A stretch of DNA of 30,113 bases from a virus. The stretch lies in IMG/VR virus record IMGVR_UViG_3300032516_000124, positions 1 to 30,113 of that record, one strand, 5' to 3'. The position numbers were made by a program, and so were the translations under genes. The notes beneath the pieces were generated by a model, which was given only the letters and a program-made list of their open reading frames with translations, made no database searches and was not told the origin of the DNA. Positions 22,020 to 30,113 of this stretch are shown here, piece after piece. The stretch's first letter is position 1. Each line of letters opens with the position of its first letter.

Positions 22020-22162
22020 AGTTTACTCCCTCTGATCTTTATTCGATGATTTTTCTGGTATCTTTTTCGTCTGGTTGCACGAACCTTCCTTCTGCAGCCA
22101 TCACAAAGTATTCTGTTGCCATAAACCGAGTTATTGCAGTCTCTACATTTCTTTTGTTTCAT
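22016..22162 (-). CDS. Small zinc-ribbon-type protein, 48 residues; first gene of the left arm
   Basis: Two C-x2-C pairs (KCRDCNNS and LCDGCRRK) form a classic single zinc ribbon, followed by a strongly basic tail (ATRRKRYQKNHRIKIRGSK) suited to nucleic-acid binding. As the first gene after the control region it could be an early regulator, an inference only. There is no Shine-Dalgarno; TATAAT ends seven bases before the ATG. Confidence 0.65.
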   Translation of the reverse strand: MKQKKCRDCNNSVYGNRILCDGCRRKVRATRRKRYQKNHRIKIRGSKL

Positions 22163-22169
22163 ATAAGTA

Positions 22170-22179
22170 ATTATACTCA
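22170..22179 (-). promoter_or_regulatory. Promoter-like TGAGTATAAT before the first left-arm gene
   Basis: Minus strand TGAGTATAAT then TACTTAT and ATG 22162: same spacing as at dnaB. Eight of ten bases match the recurrent element. Confidence 0.5.
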
Positions 22180-22196
22180 AAGGTGGTCCACAGCAC

Positions 22197-22306
22197 ACCC
22201 GGACTACCTAGTATAAGGGGACATACCCGGACCATAGGAGGGGACATACCCGGACTACCTAGTATGAGGGGACATACCCGGACCATAGGAGGGGACATAC
22301 CCGGAC
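22197..22306 (+). repeat. Iterated direct repeats (iteron-like)
   Basis: ACCCGGAC occurs five times at 22197, 22225, 22248, 22276 and 22299, so spacings alternate 28, 23, 28, 23. Four of these are within GGGGACATACCCGGAC. The full period is 51 bases, with alternating spacers TACCTAGTATRAG and CATAGGA. Such phased repeats are usual for initiator binding at origins, or for regulator binding. Confidence 0.9.
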
Positions 22307-22499
22307 TACCTGCTTGTAAGAAAAGAAAGCGTTCTCTCTCCTCCCTCTCCCCTTAAAAACCCCTTTCCTTCCTTTTTTTCGAAAGAAAAGAAAAATAGTA
22401 TTTTGTAACACACCGCTCGTATTTAGACAGGCAGCAAGTAATGGTAACACCGAAAAGACTTTTGTCATACAGCTACTCAATGATATCTTCATAAATTGT

Positions 22500-23036: not shown

Positions 23037-25277
23037 ATGGCACTAGGCAACCCCTTCAAGCTCCTACAAAAACTCGAACGTAAGCCCCCGATGGTCAGTG
23101 CAAACGTCATCAAGGGGCACCTCACAGACGAAGATAAGAAGCTCCTGCAGTCTATAGGCATCTCCGCGGGTCAACTATTCGAAAGAATGCATGCGGACGT
23201 TGCCGTAAACTACGACCGAGCCCGATTTTACAACGAGATTACCCGGGCTGTGGATCACTGGATGATCGGCCCTGCTGTCGAGCTCTACGCTGACTATTCC
23301 ACCAACTTTTCTGCTTTACACAATGCGAGCGTCTGGGTCACGTCTGAAAACCCCACCTACCAACGAGTCCTCACGAAGATGCTTGACGACATTGGGATCG
23401 AGGAGAAGATATTTGACTGGGCTTGGAACACGGGTGCATTTGGCGATTTGTTCGTAAGGATTAACGGGATGCCCGGGATTGGTATCGTAAGTATCAATGA
23501 CGACGAGCACCCCATCAACATGAGTCGTGTAGACCATAACGGTTGTCTTATTGGGTTCTTTGAAACACCCCAGGGCGAGGCACAGGGGTCTCCGTCCAAC
23601 CTCATCCCGCCCTGGGACGTTGTTCACTTCCGGACCTTGGGTGCTAAGCGTAAGCGCCCCCAGTTCGGTGATCCAACTTACTGTCTTCGGGGGAACACCA
23701 AAGTTCATCTCCTTGACGGAACTGAACCAACCATCGCGGAAATGGCTGAAAAGCCTGAATGGTACGTTGGTAAAAGTGTTTGGAGTGTTAACCCGGGAAC
23801 GTTGAAATTAGAACCGGATAAAATCGTAGACGTTAAGAAAACCCGTATTGGTGCTGAATTGGTTCGGGTTCACCTAGATAATGACCAATGGGTGGACACC
23901 ACCCCGGACCATCGGTTTATGCTCCGTGGTGGGTCATATAAGGCTGCGGGAATGCTTCAACCCGGCGATAGTTTAATGCCACTGAAAGAAGTGCTTCTGT
24001 TGAATCATAAGGTAATACAAGTGGAAATACTTGAGGAAAGAGATGACACCTACGACTTGATGACGGAGAAGAACCATAACTTTCCTCTCTCCTGTGGTGT
24101 GTTTGTTCATAATAGCGAATTCCGTGCCTCGTATCTGATGACCGGTGCAGATAGTAAGCAGGTTACGTCCCGGTACGGCACCAGCATTATTATCAACAGC
24201 CTTGCGGCGTATAAACGTCTGCGGCTGGCTGAGGATAGTCTTTTGATGGCCCGGTTGACTCGCGGGGTCATTCGATACGTTTGGAAGCTTAAGGTCGACA
24301 GCAATAACCAAGAAAGCGTCAACGAGCTGATGTCGCAGCTTGTGGGTATGCTTAAGAAGGCCCGGGCGCTGGATACCAGTCCGGGGTCTCCGAATTTCGA
24401 TAGTAAGTTCGGTCCCCTGTCTGCCGTAGAAGATCTTTTGATTCCGGTGTGGGGCGATACCGGCGATCTCACTTACGACAAAATCGGTGGAGAGGTTGAC
24501 ATTCGGTGGATCGTTGACATTGAAGAACTCCGGAATCAGCTCGCGTGTACACTGCGGGTTCCTCTGTCGGTATTGGGTGGGTACATTCAAGAAGCGTCTG
24601 GTTCGTTGGGTGCCCAAGCCATCGAGAAACTGAGTATAGAGTTTGCCCATACTGCAAGGCGTCTGCAGAGGGCGATAAAAACAGGCATCAAGCGTATGTG
24701 TCAAGTTCATTTGGCTTACTTGAACATGGACCCAGATCCACGGTTGTTTGACGTGTGTATGACCGAAACCAGTACCGCCGAGGAAGAGACCATTAAAGAG
24801 ACCCTTGATACGGGTGTTGATGTGATTCAGAAGATGATGGACGCAGCGGAGGCCGCTGATGAGAACGTTGATAAGGTGAAGATCTTCAATTATCTGAACA
24901 AGAAGATTCTAAAGCTCGACGACTTCGATTTGAACGACTTCATGAAGACCACCCCTAAGCTGGAGGCTGGAATGGCTGGGGTAGAGCCCGGTGCAGAAGG
25001 TATGGAACCCTCTATCGATCAGATGAAGTCGGATCTTGAGAACGCAGAGGAACTTAAAGGTGAGGCTGGTCCGCCGGAAAAGGTGCCAGAATCGCGACGT
25101 AAGTTGGTTGAGGTTAAGGGAAACGATGGGGAGTACGTTAAAGTAGGCAACCCTGATTTGGTTAGTTATCTTCCGATCACTGAGAACTGCGGTGGTATTG
25201 GTAGGGCCTTCAATGGTCGGTGGCGGCAGGACTGGATAGACACTTGGCAGGACGTGAAGATAAAGGTAGAGAAATGA
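23037..25277 (+). CDS. Portal protein (T4 gp20-like) containing an intein
   Basis: 746 residues before splicing, about 602 after. Forms the dodecameric ring at the head vertex through which DNA is packaged. Matches to gp20-type portals: FGDPTY...SEFRASYLM, LAAYKRLRLAEDSLLMARLTRGVIRYVWKL, DIRWIVDIEELRNQLACTLRVPLSVLGG. Residues 216-359 are an intein. The C-terminal region is acidic and flexible. I chose ATG 23037; a TTG five codons earlier is possible. Its TGA overlaps the next ATG as ATGA. First gene of the rightward arm. Confidence 0.92.
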   Translation: MALGNPFKLLQKLERKPPMVSANVIKGHLTDEDKKLLQSIGISAGQLFERMHADVAVNYDRARFYNEITRAVDHWMIGPAVELYADYSTNFSALHNASVWVTSENPTYQRVLTKMLDDIGIEEKIFDWAWNTGAFGDLFVRINGMPGIGIVSINDDEHPINMSRVDHNGCLIGFFETPQGEAQGSPSNLIPPWDVVHFRTLGAKRKRPQFGDPTYCLRGNTKVHLLDGTEPTIAEMAEKPEWYVGKSVWSVNPGTLKLEPDKIVDVKKTRIGAELVRVHLDNDQWVDTTPDHRFMLRGGSYKAAGMLQPGDSLMPLKEVLLLNHKVIQVEILEERDDTYDLMTEKNHNFPLSCGVFVHNSEFRASYLMTGADSKQVTSRYGTSIIINSLAAYKRLRLAEDSLLMARLTRGVIRYVWKLKVDSNNQESVNELMSQLVGMLKKARALDTSPGSPNFDSKFGPLSAVEDLLIPVWGDTGDLTYDKIGGEVDIRWIVDIEELRNQLACTLRVPLSVLGGYIQEASGSLGAQAIEKLSIEFAHTARRLQRAIKTGIKRMCQVHLAYLNMDPDPRLFDVCMTETSTAEEETIKETLDTGVDVIQKMMDAAEAADENVDKVKIFNYLNKKILKLDDFDLNDFMKTTPKLEAGMAGVEPGAEGMEPSIDQMKSDLENAEELKGEAGPPEKVPESRRKLVEVKGNDGEYVKVGNPDLVSYLPITENCGGIGRAFNGRWRQDWIDTWQDVKIKVEK
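23682..24113 (+). other. Mini-intein of 144 residues in the portal gene
   Basis: Splices itself out of the portal. Block A CLRGNTKVHLLDGT begins with Cys1; block B TPDHRFML has the TxxH histidine; block F is DDTYDLMTEKNHNF; block G ends GVFVHN, followed by Ser as first residue of the C-extein. The penultimate His and terminal Asn are intact, so it should be active. There is no room for a homing endonuclease domain between blocks B and F. Insertion is between DPTY and SEFR, in a conserved part of the portal. Confidence 0.95.
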
Positions 25278-25759
25278 TCGAAGTCTACAGCAAAGACGAA
25301 CTGATTGCCTGGTTTGTTCAGAACATGCCAGACGATGCTCAGATAAAGATCGACTGTCTATACGATACCAGCACCGGTTACACGGATCCGCCGTTGACTC
25401 TTGATAATTTTGCTGAACACATCAGTGGTGGAAACGCAGTTACCATGAATATGGCTATGGCAAATAGGGATATGAAATCTCTAATCCATTGCCGTTGGTT
25501 TACATCATCCGTGGGTAGGGATAAATGGGTCGACCTGATAGGTAAGTTCTTTCCGGATCGTTTTCGTATGGACATTCAACTAATGAATGCTTTTCATGGA
25601 ACCAATATTGGGGTTGACCAGATAAAAAGTGTGTACTCGATACCGGGTAATTCTGTTGCTATCGGTTCTTCTATTGGACCACCGAAAACCCACGAGTGTG
25701 CGGATTTCACGTTTGATATTCTACTTAATGAGGTAAGGAAGATTAAACTAGAGAAATGA
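25274..25759 (+). CDS. Hypothetical 161-residue protein
   Basis: Begins MIEVYSKDELIAWFVQNMPDDAQI and has no family I recognise. Beta-rich middle, one Cys-His (LIHCRWF). It overlaps the portal stop (ATGA) and the next start (ATGA), so it is fully embedded in the operon. It does not carry the leader shared by the genes that follow. Confidence 0.78.
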   Translation: MIEVYSKDELIAWFVQNMPDDAQIKIDCLYDTSTGYTDPPLTLDNFAEHISGGNAVTMNMAMANRDMKSLIHCRWFTSSVGRDKWVDLIGKFFPDRFRMDIQLMNAFHGTNIGVDQIKSVYSIPGNSVAIGSSIGPPKTHECADFTFDILLNEVRKIKLEK

Positions 25760-26187
25760 TCGACCTAATAGAAAGATTGATTTCAATAAACGATAGTCGT
25801 CCGCTGAGTCCACAGAAGAAACTTCTCAACAAATTCGGATCTATAAAGGTCGACGACATACAAGAGATTCCGAGCGGTTACGAGGATGACCCGTTCGTGG
25901 GTATGTGGGTGCTTTCCAATGGTAATTTGGTGAAAGTTGAATACACGCACTACAAGGATGCTGAATCGGTTGGCACTACTGAGGATGATCTTTTACAATC
26001 CGGTATAATGGCGCTGGAACTGAATATGTGTTTCATTTCAATTAGGGGTTCCGGGCCTTTCACGACAGAACAAAAGCAGACTCTTTTTGATTTATACCGG
26101 AAGTTTCATCCAAAAGAGTTCGTCACCGATGTAGAGTCAACAGAGATTAAATCAGAGGAACACGCAAGGGAATGGATTGGGTTGTGA
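25756..26187 (+). CDS. Hypothetical protein with leader motif, 143 residues
   Basis: Starts with the leader MIDLIERLISIND. Residues 51-57 (WVLSNGN) and 103-127 (TTEQKQTLFDLY...FVTDV) resemble the ADP-ribosyltransferase gene at 27744 and the last gene of the window, defining a shared small domain. Function unknown; the leader suggests the same destination as the other leader-bearing proteins, which I infer to be the phage head. Overlaps both neighbours (ATGA, GTGA). Confidence 0.75.
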   Translation: MIDLIERLISINDSRPLSPQKKLLNKFGSIKVDDIQEIPSGYEDDPFVGMWVLSNGNLVKVEYTHYKDAESVGTTEDDLLQSGIMALELNMCFISIRGSGPFTTEQKQTLFDLYRKFHPKEFVTDVESTEIKSEEHAREWIGL

Positions 26188-26570
26188 ACGACTTGCTCGA
26201 TAGATTGATTCAACTGAGAGAAGCCGAGGTCAATACGGCAAACAAAGGTTGGACCGGGGTGGACCTTGATGGAACCCTTGCGTATTACGATGGGTGGAAG
26301 GGTTCATCCTATATCGGTGAGCCCGTTACCAAGATGGTCGACCGAGTTATCAAGTGGGTTAAGAAAGGTCGAAATGTAAAGATATTTACCGCTCGGGTGT
26401 CGGAGCCGGACTATGATGAGGCTGTGATCCAAGCTTGGCTTGAAAAAGTCGGTATTGGGCGATTGCCTGTCACTAACGTCAAAGACATGCACATGATCGA
26501 GCTGTGGGATGATCGATGCGTACAGGTGATCAAGAACACGGGCGAACGATTGGTGGGTGGAGATGTTTGA
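26184..26570 (+). CDS. HAD-like phosphatase with leader motif
   Basis: 128 residues from GTG 26184, which overlaps the previous stop as GTGA and places the leader MNDLLDRLIQLRE at the very N-terminus. Then HAD motif I GVDLDGTL (D27, D29), motif II FTAR (T69), Lys100 in NVKDMHM and motif IV WDDR (D109, D110). Phage members of this type are thought to be small-molecule or nucleotide phosphatases. LRE followed by Ala is a possible prohead-protease site, which would release the intact enzyme. Confidence 0.82.
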   Translation: MNDLLDRLIQLREAEVNTANKGWTGVDLDGTLAYYDGWKGSSYIGEPVTKMVDRVIKWVKKGRNVKIFTARVSEPDYDEAVIQAWLEKVGIGRLPVTNVKDMHMIELWDDRCVQVIKNTGERLVGGDV

Positions 26571-27198
26571 AGAACTGATTGAAAGCATGCTTCACGAGAG
26601 TGGTAAGATTGGCCGGTTTTATCATATATCTCCTATAGACTTTGGTGCTACGGTTGAATTTTCCCCGCGGCCTCCTATCAACGCTGGTTACACTGAACCC
26701 CCGTGGCCAAGAATCTGCGTGTCTGATACTGTAGAGGGTTGTCTTGTAGCCATTGGAAACGTACTGGGTAACGATGAAGTATGGGTCGTGTACGTCTATA
26801 AAACGGCTGAGCCAGTTGAAGTTACGAGGCCGGTAAAGGTTGTAGACGCCGATGTCACCGGCGAAATGTGGATAGATAAAAATACAACGTTTGAGAGGGT
26901 TCGTAAAATAGACTTACATATGCTACCAAGAGACTTGGTTAACGATTTATTTGCTTTGCAGTCTGGGCGTGAAGATGCCCTTGACTCCCAAAAGAGAGTG
27001 AGAAACCGGTTGGAACGACATTTAGGTGGCAAAACGATCAGTCAGAATAGCCCAACACTTGTGGGTTCAGCAGTGGGTGAGTCTAACATTAAGGTGGTTC
27101 CTGCACCTATGAACTTTGACGTAAGAAACAAGTTTCGTGGAAAGACTAAACGGGCTGTCAAGGATCCTAATGAGACGCAAGAAGAAAAATCGAGCTAA
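26563..27198 (+). CDS. Hypothetical protein with YHISP motif and leader-like N-terminus
   Basis: 211 residues. N-terminus MFEELIESMLHESGK resembles the leader. Then RFYHISPIDFGATVEFSPRPP, RICVSDTVEGCLVAIGN and WVVYVYKT, VTGEMWID: a pattern recalling phage proteins of unknown function that start YH[IV]SP and have PRxP. This arrangement is reminiscent of some NAD-using folds, but no catalytic residue can be assigned. The C-terminal 60 residues are basic and Gln/Asn-rich. ATG 26563 has GGTGGAG; overlaps neighbours at both ends. Confidence 0.68.
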   Translation: MFEELIESMLHESGKIGRFYHISPIDFGATVEFSPRPPINAGYTEPPWPRICVSDTVEGCLVAIGNVLGNDEVWVVYVYKTAEPVEVTRPVKVVDADVTGEMWIDKNTTFERVRKIDLHMLPRDLVNDLFALQSGREDALDSQKRVRNRLERHLGGKTISQNSPTLVGSAVGESNIKVVPAPMNFDVRNKFRGKTKRAVKDPNETQEEKSS

Positions 27199-27448
27199 GG
27201 ATAAAGCTCGCAACATAGCCAAGAAGTTCAAGGCTAATGTTAGGGATGAGACGAAATTGATATGGGTTCATTGCAAATTTCAGGACGAGACTTGTAAGAG
27301 TGTTAATGGAACCCCATGTCCACACACTTTTCCCCATGAAATATACGACTCTCCAGATTTGGGGCCGACAGACATCTGTTCTGGTGAGTGTATGAAGGAT
27401 ATCGTGACCTGGTGTGTAAAATGTTCACAACTGACGTACAATGGGTGA
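27170..27448 (+). CDS. Cys-rich hypothetical protein, 92 residues
   Basis: A very basic start (MRRKKKNRAKDKARNIAKKFK) is followed by a Cys/His-rich domain (VHCKFQDETCKSV, GTPCPHTFPHE, DICSGECMKD, TWCVKCSQL) with seven Cys, likely binding one or two zinc ions. AAGGATCCTA precedes ATG 27170. It overlaps the previous gene by 29 bases. No leader. Function unknown. Confidence 0.68.
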   Translation: MRRKKKNRAKDKARNIAKKFKANVRDETKLIWVHCKFQDETCKSVNGTPCPHTFPHEIYDSPDLGPTDICSGECMKDIVTWCVKCSQLTYNG

Positions 27449-27451
27449 AAT

Positions 27452-27739
27452 ATGGAAGACAATCACGAAAATGTAGTATTCGATCGAATGGTTGAACAAC
27501 AGGTACAAAAGATTTCGAAGTTTATTGCTGCTCTCCCAGAGGATCGCAGACAGGGGGCGGCTTGGAACATTGTTTATGCCGCTGTGTGTTTTGGGACCTC
27601 CAGTGAAGTTGAGGCCATAGGTCTTTTGGAAGACGTAAATTTTCACGTTCACGAGGATATTCACGAATTTCACGAGGCCAAGGATGCTAATGATACTGAG
27701 GATCCTGATGACGTTACGGATTCTGAGGATCAGGAGTAA
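27452..27739 (+). CDS. Acidic hypothetical protein, 95 residues
   Basis: Helical N-terminal half (VVFDRMVEQQVQKISKFIAAL, then RQGAAWNIVYAAVCFG) and a very acidic C-terminus (DANDTEDPDDVTDSEDQE) with a His-rich patch (FHVHEDIHEFHEA). No family recognised. Starts four bases after the previous stop; its end supplies AGGAG for the next gene. Confidence 0.68.
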   Translation: MEDNHENVVFDRMVEQQVQKISKFIAALPEDRRQGAAWNIVYAAVCFGTSSEVEAIGLLEDVNFHVHEDIHEFHEAKDANDTEDPDDVTDSEDQE

Positions 27740-27743
27740 GACC

Positions 27744-28841
27744 GTGAATGACCTGCTCGATAGATTGTTTGAGGTAACTAAACGTAAAAAGGGTGAGTCT
27801 CTGCCGGAACCGCAGCGGATTTTCTATAATTACGTATCAAAGCTGGGTAAAGAGTACACAAGCCCTGATTCGATCGTGGAACACGAATCGTTTTTCTGGG
27901 TTTTATCCGATGGTACGACGGTCTTTTCTGGCTCTGGTGGTGGGTTGCATCACGCGGACGGTGCTCGAATTGCGGGCACTAAGATGCACGAAATGATGCA
28001 CACTGGTGCTCTTCGTGGAACATTTTTTGATGATCTTGGTATCGAGGTTAACAAAGGTACCAAAATCAGCATGGAACAGGTTACCGCGGTTCAGTATCTA
28101 ATCGAAAAGTCCGGTAAGGATTTGATCATCGACGTTTTCGAAGGAGGATTGGAAGCTAAAGAGGCATTCGTTGCATGGTACTACATTGATAGACCGGTAA
28201 GCAACGATCTGTTGTACGAGATTCTAAATGGTAGTGGAAAAGTGAAGGACTTTCAGAAAACCATGCAAGAAATTATGGATATCGATCGAGAAGTGATCGA
28301 GGGTCGGATTCTGGAAACTACGAAATCACAGCAAACGAACTTTACCCAGGCTGAATGGGAAAAATCTATAACCCCAGAAGAAAAGGCGGCTATTGAGTAT
28401 TACTCTGAGACGATGGAAACCAGCGATGCGGTTCGGAGCGGTAAGTCTCCCCATTCAAAGCCTTTCTTTGCTGCCATTAATCGAGCACCAAAATATCGGG
28501 GCGTAGTGTACAGGGGCCAGTATCTTCATGATTCATCCGCAATAAATATGATGACGAAGGTTGGTAGTGAGTTTACGTTTAGCCACGATGGAAAGCCTTC
28601 CGCTGGTTCTAAATCTCATGCAATAGCGGAGGAGTTTATCGATGATTTTGAGGGGCAGACTGCTGCTGTTTTTACAATAGAGATTCGAACTGGCGTCGAT
28701 ATTTCCAATTTGGTACTTGACGAGTACAAACGTCAAGAAGAAGTCATAATTAGATCAAACACAAAGTTCAAAGTTGTGAGTGCAAAGTGGAAGCGGACAC
28801 CATCAATGAGATGGTGGGTTGTGTCCGTCAAAGAAATATGA
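27744..28841 (+). CDS. ADP-ribosyltransferase with leader motif
   Basis: 365 residues from GTG 27744 (AGGAG eight bases upstream). Leader MNDLLDRLFEVTKRKKGE, then the shared domain (WVLSDGT at 52-58; SMEQ at 109-112; LIIDV). The C-terminal 130 residues have the mono-ADP-ribosyltransferase signature: VYRG with Arg257, the S-containing strand AGSKSHAIAEEF (Ser289/291), and RQEEVII with Glu333 and Gln331, a QxE version of the ExE turn. It would transfer ADP-ribose from NAD to a host protein. T4 Alt is a packaged and injected enzyme of this kind, so injection is a reasonable inference. Confidence 0.85.
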   Translation: MNDLLDRLFEVTKRKKGESLPEPQRIFYNYVSKLGKEYTSPDSIVEHESFFWVLSDGTTVFSGSGGGLHHADGARIAGTKMHEMMHTGALRGTFFDDLGIEVNKGTKISMEQVTAVQYLIEKSGKDLIIDVFEGGLEAKEAFVAWYYIDRPVSNDLLYEILNGSGKVKDFQKTMQEIMDIDREVIEGRILETTKSQQTNFTQAEWEKSITPEEKAAIEYYSETMETSDAVRSGKSPHSKPFFAAINRAPKYRGVVYRGQYLHDSSAINMMTKVGSEFTFSHDGKPSAGSKSHAIAEEFIDDFEGQTAAVFTIEIRTGVDISNLVLDEYKRQEEVIIRSNTKFKVVSAKWKRTPSMRWWVVSVKEI

Positions 28842-28921
28842 AAGATCTTCTTGAAAGACTGCTGGAAATCCGCAGTTGGGCCACCAAGGTAAACGCCATT
28901 CAAAGGGGAGAAAATGGTTGA
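28838..28921 (+). CDS. 27-residue stand-alone leader peptide
   Basis: ATG at 28838 overlaps the ADP-ribosyltransferase stop as ATGA. The peptide starts MKDLLERLLEIRS, the same motif as the larger neighbours, then WATKVNAIQRGENG and stops. Codons differ from those of the other copies while the residues match, which argues for selection on the peptide. The end overlaps the next gene by eight bases and contains its AAAGGGGAG ribosome site. Confidence 0.65.
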   Translation: MKDLLERLLEIRSWATKVNAIQRGENG

Positions 28922-29354
28922 TATAACGCAGCAGTCCAAAGCAAGTTTGTTTCCGTGTGATTGTGGGCTTGAGGGGATTGTTGTCGTAGTTCAAGATGAA
29001 GACGATGATACGAATGTGGTTGGTGCCCCACTCATTAAAATGGCGTTCTTTGGTGTTGGTTCGTATGCTGATGGGAGACTGTCATGGCGGAATAGGCTGC
29101 GGTGGATCTGGAGAATTATTCATACTGGCAACCCATTCGAGGATATGGTGACGCTCCGGTCTAACGTGGCAAGGAACATGGCGAACCACATTCTTTACTT
29201 GCTATCCCGCAATAAAATCAAGCAGCCAGAACAGGATTATTTAGTGAAGTTGCCGGGTGAAGTAAAGACCCCGGATGAATTACCAGAAAGTTTTGGTACT
29301 ATAAATCAACAAAAGCATTGGTTTAATGATGACAATGTTGACGCGGGAATGTAA
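28914..29354 (+). CDS. Hypothetical phage protein with CDCGLEG motif, 146 residues
   Basis: N-terminal FPCDCGLEGIVVVVQDE, then KMAFFGVG, and SWRNRLRWIWRIIHTGNPFEDMVTL. This pattern (CDC...EG, WRxRLR, G-x-P-x-x-D) is familiar from phage proteins of unknown role. The Cys-Asp-Cys may bind metal. Very good ribosome site AAAGGGGAGAAA. No leader of its own, but the stand-alone leader is directly upstream. Confidence 0.75.
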   Translation: MVDITQQSKASLFPCDCGLEGIVVVVQDEDDDTNVVGAPLIKMAFFGVGSYADGRLSWRNRLRWIWRIIHTGNPFEDMVTLRSNVARNMANHILYLLSRNKIKQPEQDYLVKLPGEVKTPDELPESFGTINQQKHWFNDDNVDAGM

Positions 29355-29356
29355 TT

Positions 29357-30113
29357 ATGTTTGAATTATTTGATAGACTGGTTCGTAGAATCCGCGAGAG
29401 TGAGCTTCCTGATGTCCAAGCTCAGATCAAGGCGGCTAATGGTGGCAATACCAAGCTGACCCACAGCACCTGGGCTGGGGAGGAGAGGTGGCTCAAGTTT
29501 TTAATACTTAACGATGGTACTCTGATTCCTGTCCCGGACAGTCATGGGGACGCCATACGAAGTCTATCTGCTGGTTCATCCGATTATTCCATTGGTGACT
29601 TCGATAATTCTGATGGTGTCCAAGGTAAAATTGATCTAAATATCAAAGAAATAGACTTGTACTATAGTGAAAAACTTACTTCTGATCAGATAAATACCAT
29701 CATGGATTTGTGGTCTGAGTACGGTTGTAGGTGGCTGGTTGTTGACAGTGACATGAATTCCTTCTCGACCCCCGTCAAGTCGGTTGAGCAGCTAAAAGGT
29801 GTTCTGGTATACGGTAAAGAAATGGCTGTCGCTGTTTCCGATCGTCTGCACTTCGATCTTTTTGACCACCTAATGAAGATCCGTGAAGGTTTGTCGGTGG
29901 TGCAAAGAGAACTAAAGCTGGATCTCGAACAGGGGGAACTTGAGAATAGTAGGGGGGGTTGGACGGACGAAGAAGGGTGGAAGAAGATTCTAATCCTTAC
30001 CGATGGGACGGTGTTGAAGGTGCCCGGAGATCATGGGAAATCTTTGGTAACCAGTGATGGGACACAGATTAGTAAACAGTTTAACGAAGAGGGTGGTATT
30101 CAGGGCAAGATAG
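29357..30113 (+). CDS. Leader-motif protein with tandem duplicated units, cut by window edge
   Basis: 252 codons seen, open at the right edge. Leader MFELFDRLVRRIRE, then the shared domain (WLKFLILNDGT, about 45-55; LTSDQINTIMDLW...LVVD, 107-130). From residue about 165 the whole arrangement starts again: HFDLFDHLMKIREG, then WKKILILTDGTVLKVPGDHG, and a QGKI that also ends the first unit's segment. The internal repeat offset is about 163 residues. IRE in both copies fits a prohead-protease site. Function unknown. Confidence 0.75.
   Translation, partial: MFELFDRLVRRIRESELPDVQAQIKAANGGNTKLTHSTWAGEERWLKFLILNDGTLIPVPDSHGDAIRSLSAGSSDYSIGDFDNSDGVQGKIDLNIKEIDLYYSEKLTSDQINTIMDLWSEYGCRWLVVDSDMNSFSTPVKSVEQLKGVLVYGKEMAVAVSDRLHFDLFDHLMKIREGLSVVQRELKLDLEQGELENSRGGWTDEEGWKKILILTDGTVLKVPGDHGKSLVTSDGTQISKQFNEEGGIQGKI

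Follow-up and report, generated by a model that had tools for sequence, protein, structure and literature searches.

A probable T4-type capsid-targeting leader on many late genes behind a gp20-like portal

The capsid-targeting sequence (CTS) of bacteriophage T4 is a short hydrophobic and acidic N-terminal propeptide with (L/I)xE around residue 10, found on diverse bodies (IPI, IPII, IPIII, and Alt), and the T4 prohead protease cuts after (L/I)xE. The N-termini of T4 substrates include MAKINELLRE (gp24), MKTYQEFIAE (IPII/IPIII), and MLKEQLIAE (gp22). In IPIII, residues 4 and 7 serve targeting and residues 8 and 10 serve processing, and the CTS has been suggested in review to be a general loading route for diverse proteins in T4-like phages (PMC9026906). 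A leader of similar design lies behind the portal gene of the virus, an uncultured phage related to T4, in IMG/VR record IMGVR_UViG_3300032516_000124, whose 30,113 nucleotides, the entire public record (right end 30113), are called the window here. This leader is probably a T4-type capsid-targeting propeptide, processed by a gp21-type (S77) protease and carried by many genes as well as by polyprotein cargo.

The phage type also resembles T4 in having homologues of gp20, gp21, and gp23, the latter two read in relatives. Its leader differs from the T4 CTS in sequence ([DE]LL[DE]RL here, KTYQEF in T4), is often a few residues longer, marks more genes per genome, and recurs inside tandem-domain proteins. 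A second described system is the head maturation of phiKZ and SPN3US, with its gp175/gp245 proteases and ejection proteins; its motif ends in Glu but is not (L/I)xE, and its propeptides are longer. Heads of that type contain many proteins cleaved after Glu by an S77-related protease, and several cuts in a single protein have been reported (PMC9026906). The present lineage shares with them an S77-related protease and Glu-ended cleavage sites, here predicted, whereas its leader is short and shared and its head is of the T4 gp20/gp23 type.

Five genes behind the gp20-like portal of the window begin with an amphipathic M-x-[DE]-L-[LIF]-[DE]-[RS]-[LM] leader; VNDLLDRLIQLREAEV is one example of such a start over ~16 residues. 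An earlier reading made from the letters of the window (the sequence-only reading) had proposed such a shared leader, and it is present at 25756, 26184, 26563, 27744, and 29357, with an internal copy at 29846-29887. The features are as follows (arrows mark predicted cuts; sites, mini-ORF, and internal copy were read from the sequence).

25756..26187, + strand: leader gene 1, MIDLIERLIS and a DUF5983-like domain (143 aa); phmmer to G006_7624 5e-9 and to G001_46181 2e-8
26184..26570, + strand: leader gene 2, GTG start, VNDLLDRLIQLRE and a HAD-like phosphatase domain; phrog_1238 1e-6, phrog_415 PNK 1e-5
26214..26222, + strand: putative cleavage site LRE↓A of leader gene 2
26563..27198, + strand: leader gene 3, MFEELIESMLHE and a 'YHIS' domain (uncharacterised phage families); phrog_5043 3e-5, phrog_10766 6e-5
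26590..26598, + strand: putative cleavage site LHE↓S of leader gene 3
27744..28841, + strand: leader gene 4, GTG start, VNDLLDRLFEV, a DUF5983-like domain, and a probable ADP-ribosyltransferase
28838..28921, + strand: putative stand-alone leader mini-ORF (open reading frame), starting MKDLLERLLEIRS and reading MKDLLERLLEIRSWATKVNAIQRGENG-stop, 27 aa
29357..30113, + strand: leader gene 5, cut by the window end, MFELFDRLVRRIRE and tandem DUF5983-like domains, polyprotein-like
29390..29398, + strand: putative cleavage site IRE↓S of leader gene 5
29846..29887, + strand: internal leader copy LHFDLFDHLMKIRE↓G at the junction of repeat 1 and repeat 2 of leader gene 5

Four copies carry (L/I)xE just after the helix (LRE, LHE, IRE, and the internal IRE), as the sequence-only reading had seen, and the LFE of leader gene 4 lies inside the helix or at its end. 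Where that reading gave MNDLLDRLFEV, the leader at 27744 reads VNDLLDRLFEV from a GTG start, and the leader at 26184 also has a GTG start. All five leaders that it attributed to consecutive or near-consecutive products are real, save that MKDLLERLLEIRS opens a 27-codon ORF in place of a full product and the next gene (28914-29354) is leaderless. This mini-ORF overlaps gene 4 at its stop and the following gene at its start, and may be either a free targeting peptide or the leftover of a lost gene.

Enrichment was measured over 18 related contigs overall (517 late genes, 270 families), by comparing how often late gene products have [LI]xE in residues 2-18 with its frequency in their own internal stretches. 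Among the first contigs, N-terminal [LI]xE was found in 23/59 genes against 8.4 in G004, in 32/99 against 18.7 in G005, and in 5/9 against 1.2 in the window. A combined pattern, consisting of a hydrophobic pair, a hydrophobic residue one turn later, and then [LIV]xE, occurs in 3/9 late N-termini of the window, where internal stretches would give ~0.1 (p = 3e-5), and in 1/32 of its early genes against 1.0 expected. Because this helix rule was written after the leaders were seen and shaped on the first contigs, both rules were frozen and then applied to 13 new loci picked up in searches for capsid or protease genes, which provide the fair test. A weight matrix trained on the leaders of the window and G001 had proved too clade-specific for G004 and G005 and was replaced by the simpler rule.

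The leader search across related genomes that the sequence-only reading called for held on these 13 loci, where 105 of 251 late genes have N-terminal [LI]xE against 52 expected (p = 3e-14) and 36 of 251 have the helix followed by [LIV]xE against 9.5 expected (p = 9e-12). Compared with shuffles of each N-terminus itself, [LI]xE was again in excess (105 vs 57, p = 2e-11). Neither early genes (48/229 vs 42 expected) nor the T7, lambda, and Mu control phages (17/158 vs 23 expected) showed enrichment of [LI]xE. With one gene counted per family across the 270 families, the values were 85.6 vs 50.4 for [LI]xE (p = 3e-7) and 29.6 vs 8.1 for the helix rule (p = 4e-9). The Glu of the motif peaks at residue 10, with 40 genes there against ~8 per position further in, and T4 IPIII and gp24 also have Glu at residue 10. 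The residue after (L/I)xE (P1') has a slight A/S/G/N bias (0.36 vs 0.30), too slight for a P1' preference to be used.

The sequence-only reading also expected a gp21-like protease rightward of the leader genes, and such a gene was found in relatives of the same genome type. A portal search gave 11 related contigs. Among the INPHARED phages searched, no cultured relative turned up. The closest relative is G001, with a portal 85% identical to that of the window, and downstream of its portal and leader cassette it encodes an S77 protease (29.2 bits by hmmscan, cut-off 27) together with a gp23 capsid protein (E=1e-35). Both genes recur in G004 and G005, and in all three contigs the S77 protease scores above the Pfam cut-off (PF03420) and lies next to the gp23-type capsid gene; the gp23-type matches in the relatives range over PF07068 1e-35 to 1e-38. 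A profile-family search had overlooked the G001 S77 gene that hmmscan recovered, and the negatives of that family search are not relied on. His85 and Ser140 of T4 gp21, its established catalytic residues, are aligned and invariant in the relatives' S77 proteases. The relatives' capsid proteins have an invariant FE ([LM]FE) immediately ahead of the gp23 domain, and T4 gp23 loses its propeptide at the corresponding position. The G001 protease (L026:12138-14171; G001 52138-54171) continues into a long, fused C-terminus that is acidic and coiled-coil-like and ends near ..AFTGM; with this scaffold-like fusion, a single protein seems to be both protease and scaffold in the lineage. A similar arrangement, in which an S77 domain runs into a long coiled-coil-like C-terminus and the capsid gene comes directly next, is seen in the 'prohead core scaffolding protein and protease' of Maribacter phage Molly. 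Unlike the lineage described here, Molly_1 has no significant leader enrichment around its portal, nor do SP-15 and LIS04, which are likewise cultured and have related portals.

The uncultured 484-kb phage LR756508 is enriched (23/45 vs 10.3) and has an S77 gene and a different leader of its own. About a dozen of its portal-region genes (L134:13034-35605) share this leader, which is roughly MKxxExKLRxIIREEIxxxL, and its S77 match falls in two pieces with ~1 kb between them, where an insert may have split the gene.

Read from sequence, packaging, docking, cleavage, and ejection would proceed as follows. As the prohead assembles, the amphipathic N-terminal helix, with hydrophobic residues 4, 5, and 8, would dock cargo on the scaffold core, and the S77 prohead protease, fused to the scaffold, would then cut after [L/I/V]-x-E near residue 10. 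The cargo, including the probable ADP-ribosyltransferase, a HAD-like enzyme, and tandem-domain polyproteins with further [ILV]xE at their junctions, would be freed within the head and would probably leave it together with the DNA on ejection; that it enters the host is probable by analogy with Alt and the IPs.

The bodies behind the leader bear on an unlikely alternative, namely that the leader is no portable tag and is the N-terminal helix of one duplicated DUF5983-like family. The sequence-only reading had called the bodies unrelated, which holds for the HAD protein and for 26563; a DUF5983-like domain of ~140 aa is common to three of the five, those at 25756, 27744, and 29357, as common descent would predict. 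The domain recurs in proteins of G001 and G006, as three tandem copies in G001_60914 and G006_7624 and singly in G001_46181, G001_47413, and L038_14291; the G001 homologue of leader gene 5 has three repeats within 656 aa. The leaders of 26184 and 27744, moreover, are identical at 22/24 DNA bases and look like a recent copy, whereas most leader copies differ in their codons, a sign that the peptide is under selection. Against descent from a single family, the same leader stands on HAD, GNAT acetyltransferase (G001), nucleotidyltransferase (G005), and transglycosylase bodies, the last joined to a 2H-type domain (G004). Leaders on non-homologous bodies are more similar within a contig (10.5) than between contigs (7.5), a difference reached in 0/5000 permutations, and this within-phage similarity persists once homologous bodies are removed; MNKMLKRLQE, for example, stands on consecutive genes in L051 and MRELLxRLxE in G005. 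The G001 orthologue of HAD protein 26184 (5e-27) has no leader and in-frame stop codons just upstream, which shows that leaders are gained and lost independently of bodies.

The C-terminal part of the 27744 protein weakly resembles ADP-ribosyltransferases (Pfam ART/ADPrib_exo_Tox E 0.02, below the cut-off; Vis ART in the PDB, E 0.022), the protein matches the minor head protein family phrog_16619 (5e-7), and it is a probable ADP-ribosyltransferase with an Alt-like role. It found no match in viral contigs and none by tblastn in phages, and its single-sequence AlphaFold model was unusable (predicted local distance difference test (pLDDT) 35). The DUF5983-like domain was modelled from window 29399-29827 with a pLDDT of 93; it matched nothing among solved structures (best E 0.06) and just two viral proteins, both uncharacterised, and the model is possibly a new fold. 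In G004, L022:8217-10667 (G004 48217) encodes a leader, a 2H-phosphodiesterase-like region that weakly matches anti-CBASS Acb1, and an SLT transglycosylase, and could possibly be a packaged counter-defence protein.

Junctions in the tandem-domain proteins carry [ILV]xE as well, namely ITE↓AA, LKE↓KS, ICE↓SL, and IRE↓AV in G001, VGE↓AA, VDE↓AA, VHE↓AV, and IDE↓GV in G006, and IRE↓SE and IRE↓GL in the window. Two of the G001 junctions keep the site and have lost the helix, and [ILV]xE at junctions even without the helix fits a polyprotein cut in the head. In support, [LIV]xE follows 9/9 domain ends that have enough following sequence (shuffle product 2e-4), a count weakened by the relatedness of the repeats to one another. 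A tentative extension, given somewhat less than even chances, is that polyprotein cargo (a leader and 2-3 tandem domains, sometimes with an effector-like end) would be cut at every junction into injected proteins, and that each lineage would have its own leader 'password' matched to its scaffold. These sites also speak to a quite improbable alternative, in which the helix of the leader would dock on a complex that is not part of the head, such as tail or baseplate assembly or the inner membrane, and the E-rich motif would be coincidental. Such an amphipathic helix could bind membrane, and leader genes also lie between head and tail genes, for instance near the G001 sheath gene; the residue-10 [LI]xE peak, the S77 protease, the [LM]FE of the major capsid protein, and [ILV]xE at polyprotein junctions, however, all indicate proteolysis.

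Several points weigh against a propeptide of T4 type. The leader at 25756 is without a clear post-helix (L/I)xE, its sole LIE sitting inside the helix, and leader genes near tail genes mean that the tag may not be head-only. Counting each family once shrinks the enrichment, and in the held-out loci alone it falls to 33.9 vs 21.3 for [LI]xE (p = 3e-3) and to p = 6e-3 for the helix rule. Portal-linked G006 alone is not significant, and G001 is marginal for [LI]xE. Within the 30-kb window neither a protease nor a capsid gene was found, in searches whose controls gave no signal either. That the leaders are ordinary N-terminal amphipathic helices, similar through chance or composition, is very improbable, since, common as L- and E-rich helical N-termini are and with G006 not significant by itself, the pattern exceeds both internal stretches and its own shuffles and is absent from early genes and control phages.

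The genes next to the leader cassette include the gp20-like portal that the sequence-only reading had correctly placed ahead of it.

23037..25277, + strand: portal protein, gp20-like, split by a mini-intein; PF07230 Portal_T4 E=4e-23, phrog_1497 portal
25274..25759, + strand: leaderless gene between the portal and the first leader gene, in ATGA overlap with the portal stop

The mini-intein lies at approximately 23690-24116 (PF14890 Intein_splicing E=1e-16), and inteins also occur in related loci, in the L010 portal and the L038:14291 protein. Gene 25274-25759 has zero Pfam or PHROG matches; it is one of the leaderless genes mixed among the leader genes, together with two between 27137 and 27739 and the gene at 28914-29354. 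Short direct repeats (LPSIRGHTRTIGGDIPG in one frame) occupy 22140-22360, in the stretch that separates the leftward-running early genes from the late genes, which run rightward.

Among the open-access papers searched (subscription papers lay outside the search), none was found to describe a CTS for this lineage, leaders that are specific to a lineage, or sites at the junctions of tandem cargo. What had been suggested of the CTS, that it serves generally as a loading route (PMC9026906), becomes a testable rule that can be read from genomes. A leader with (L/I)xE near residue 10 flags candidate injected proteins in uncultured phages, mostly without known function, and the new sets of leader, scaffold, and protease are offered for packaging foreign proteins. 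The tandem-domain proteins suggest, in addition, polyprotein cargo that would be processed inside the head.

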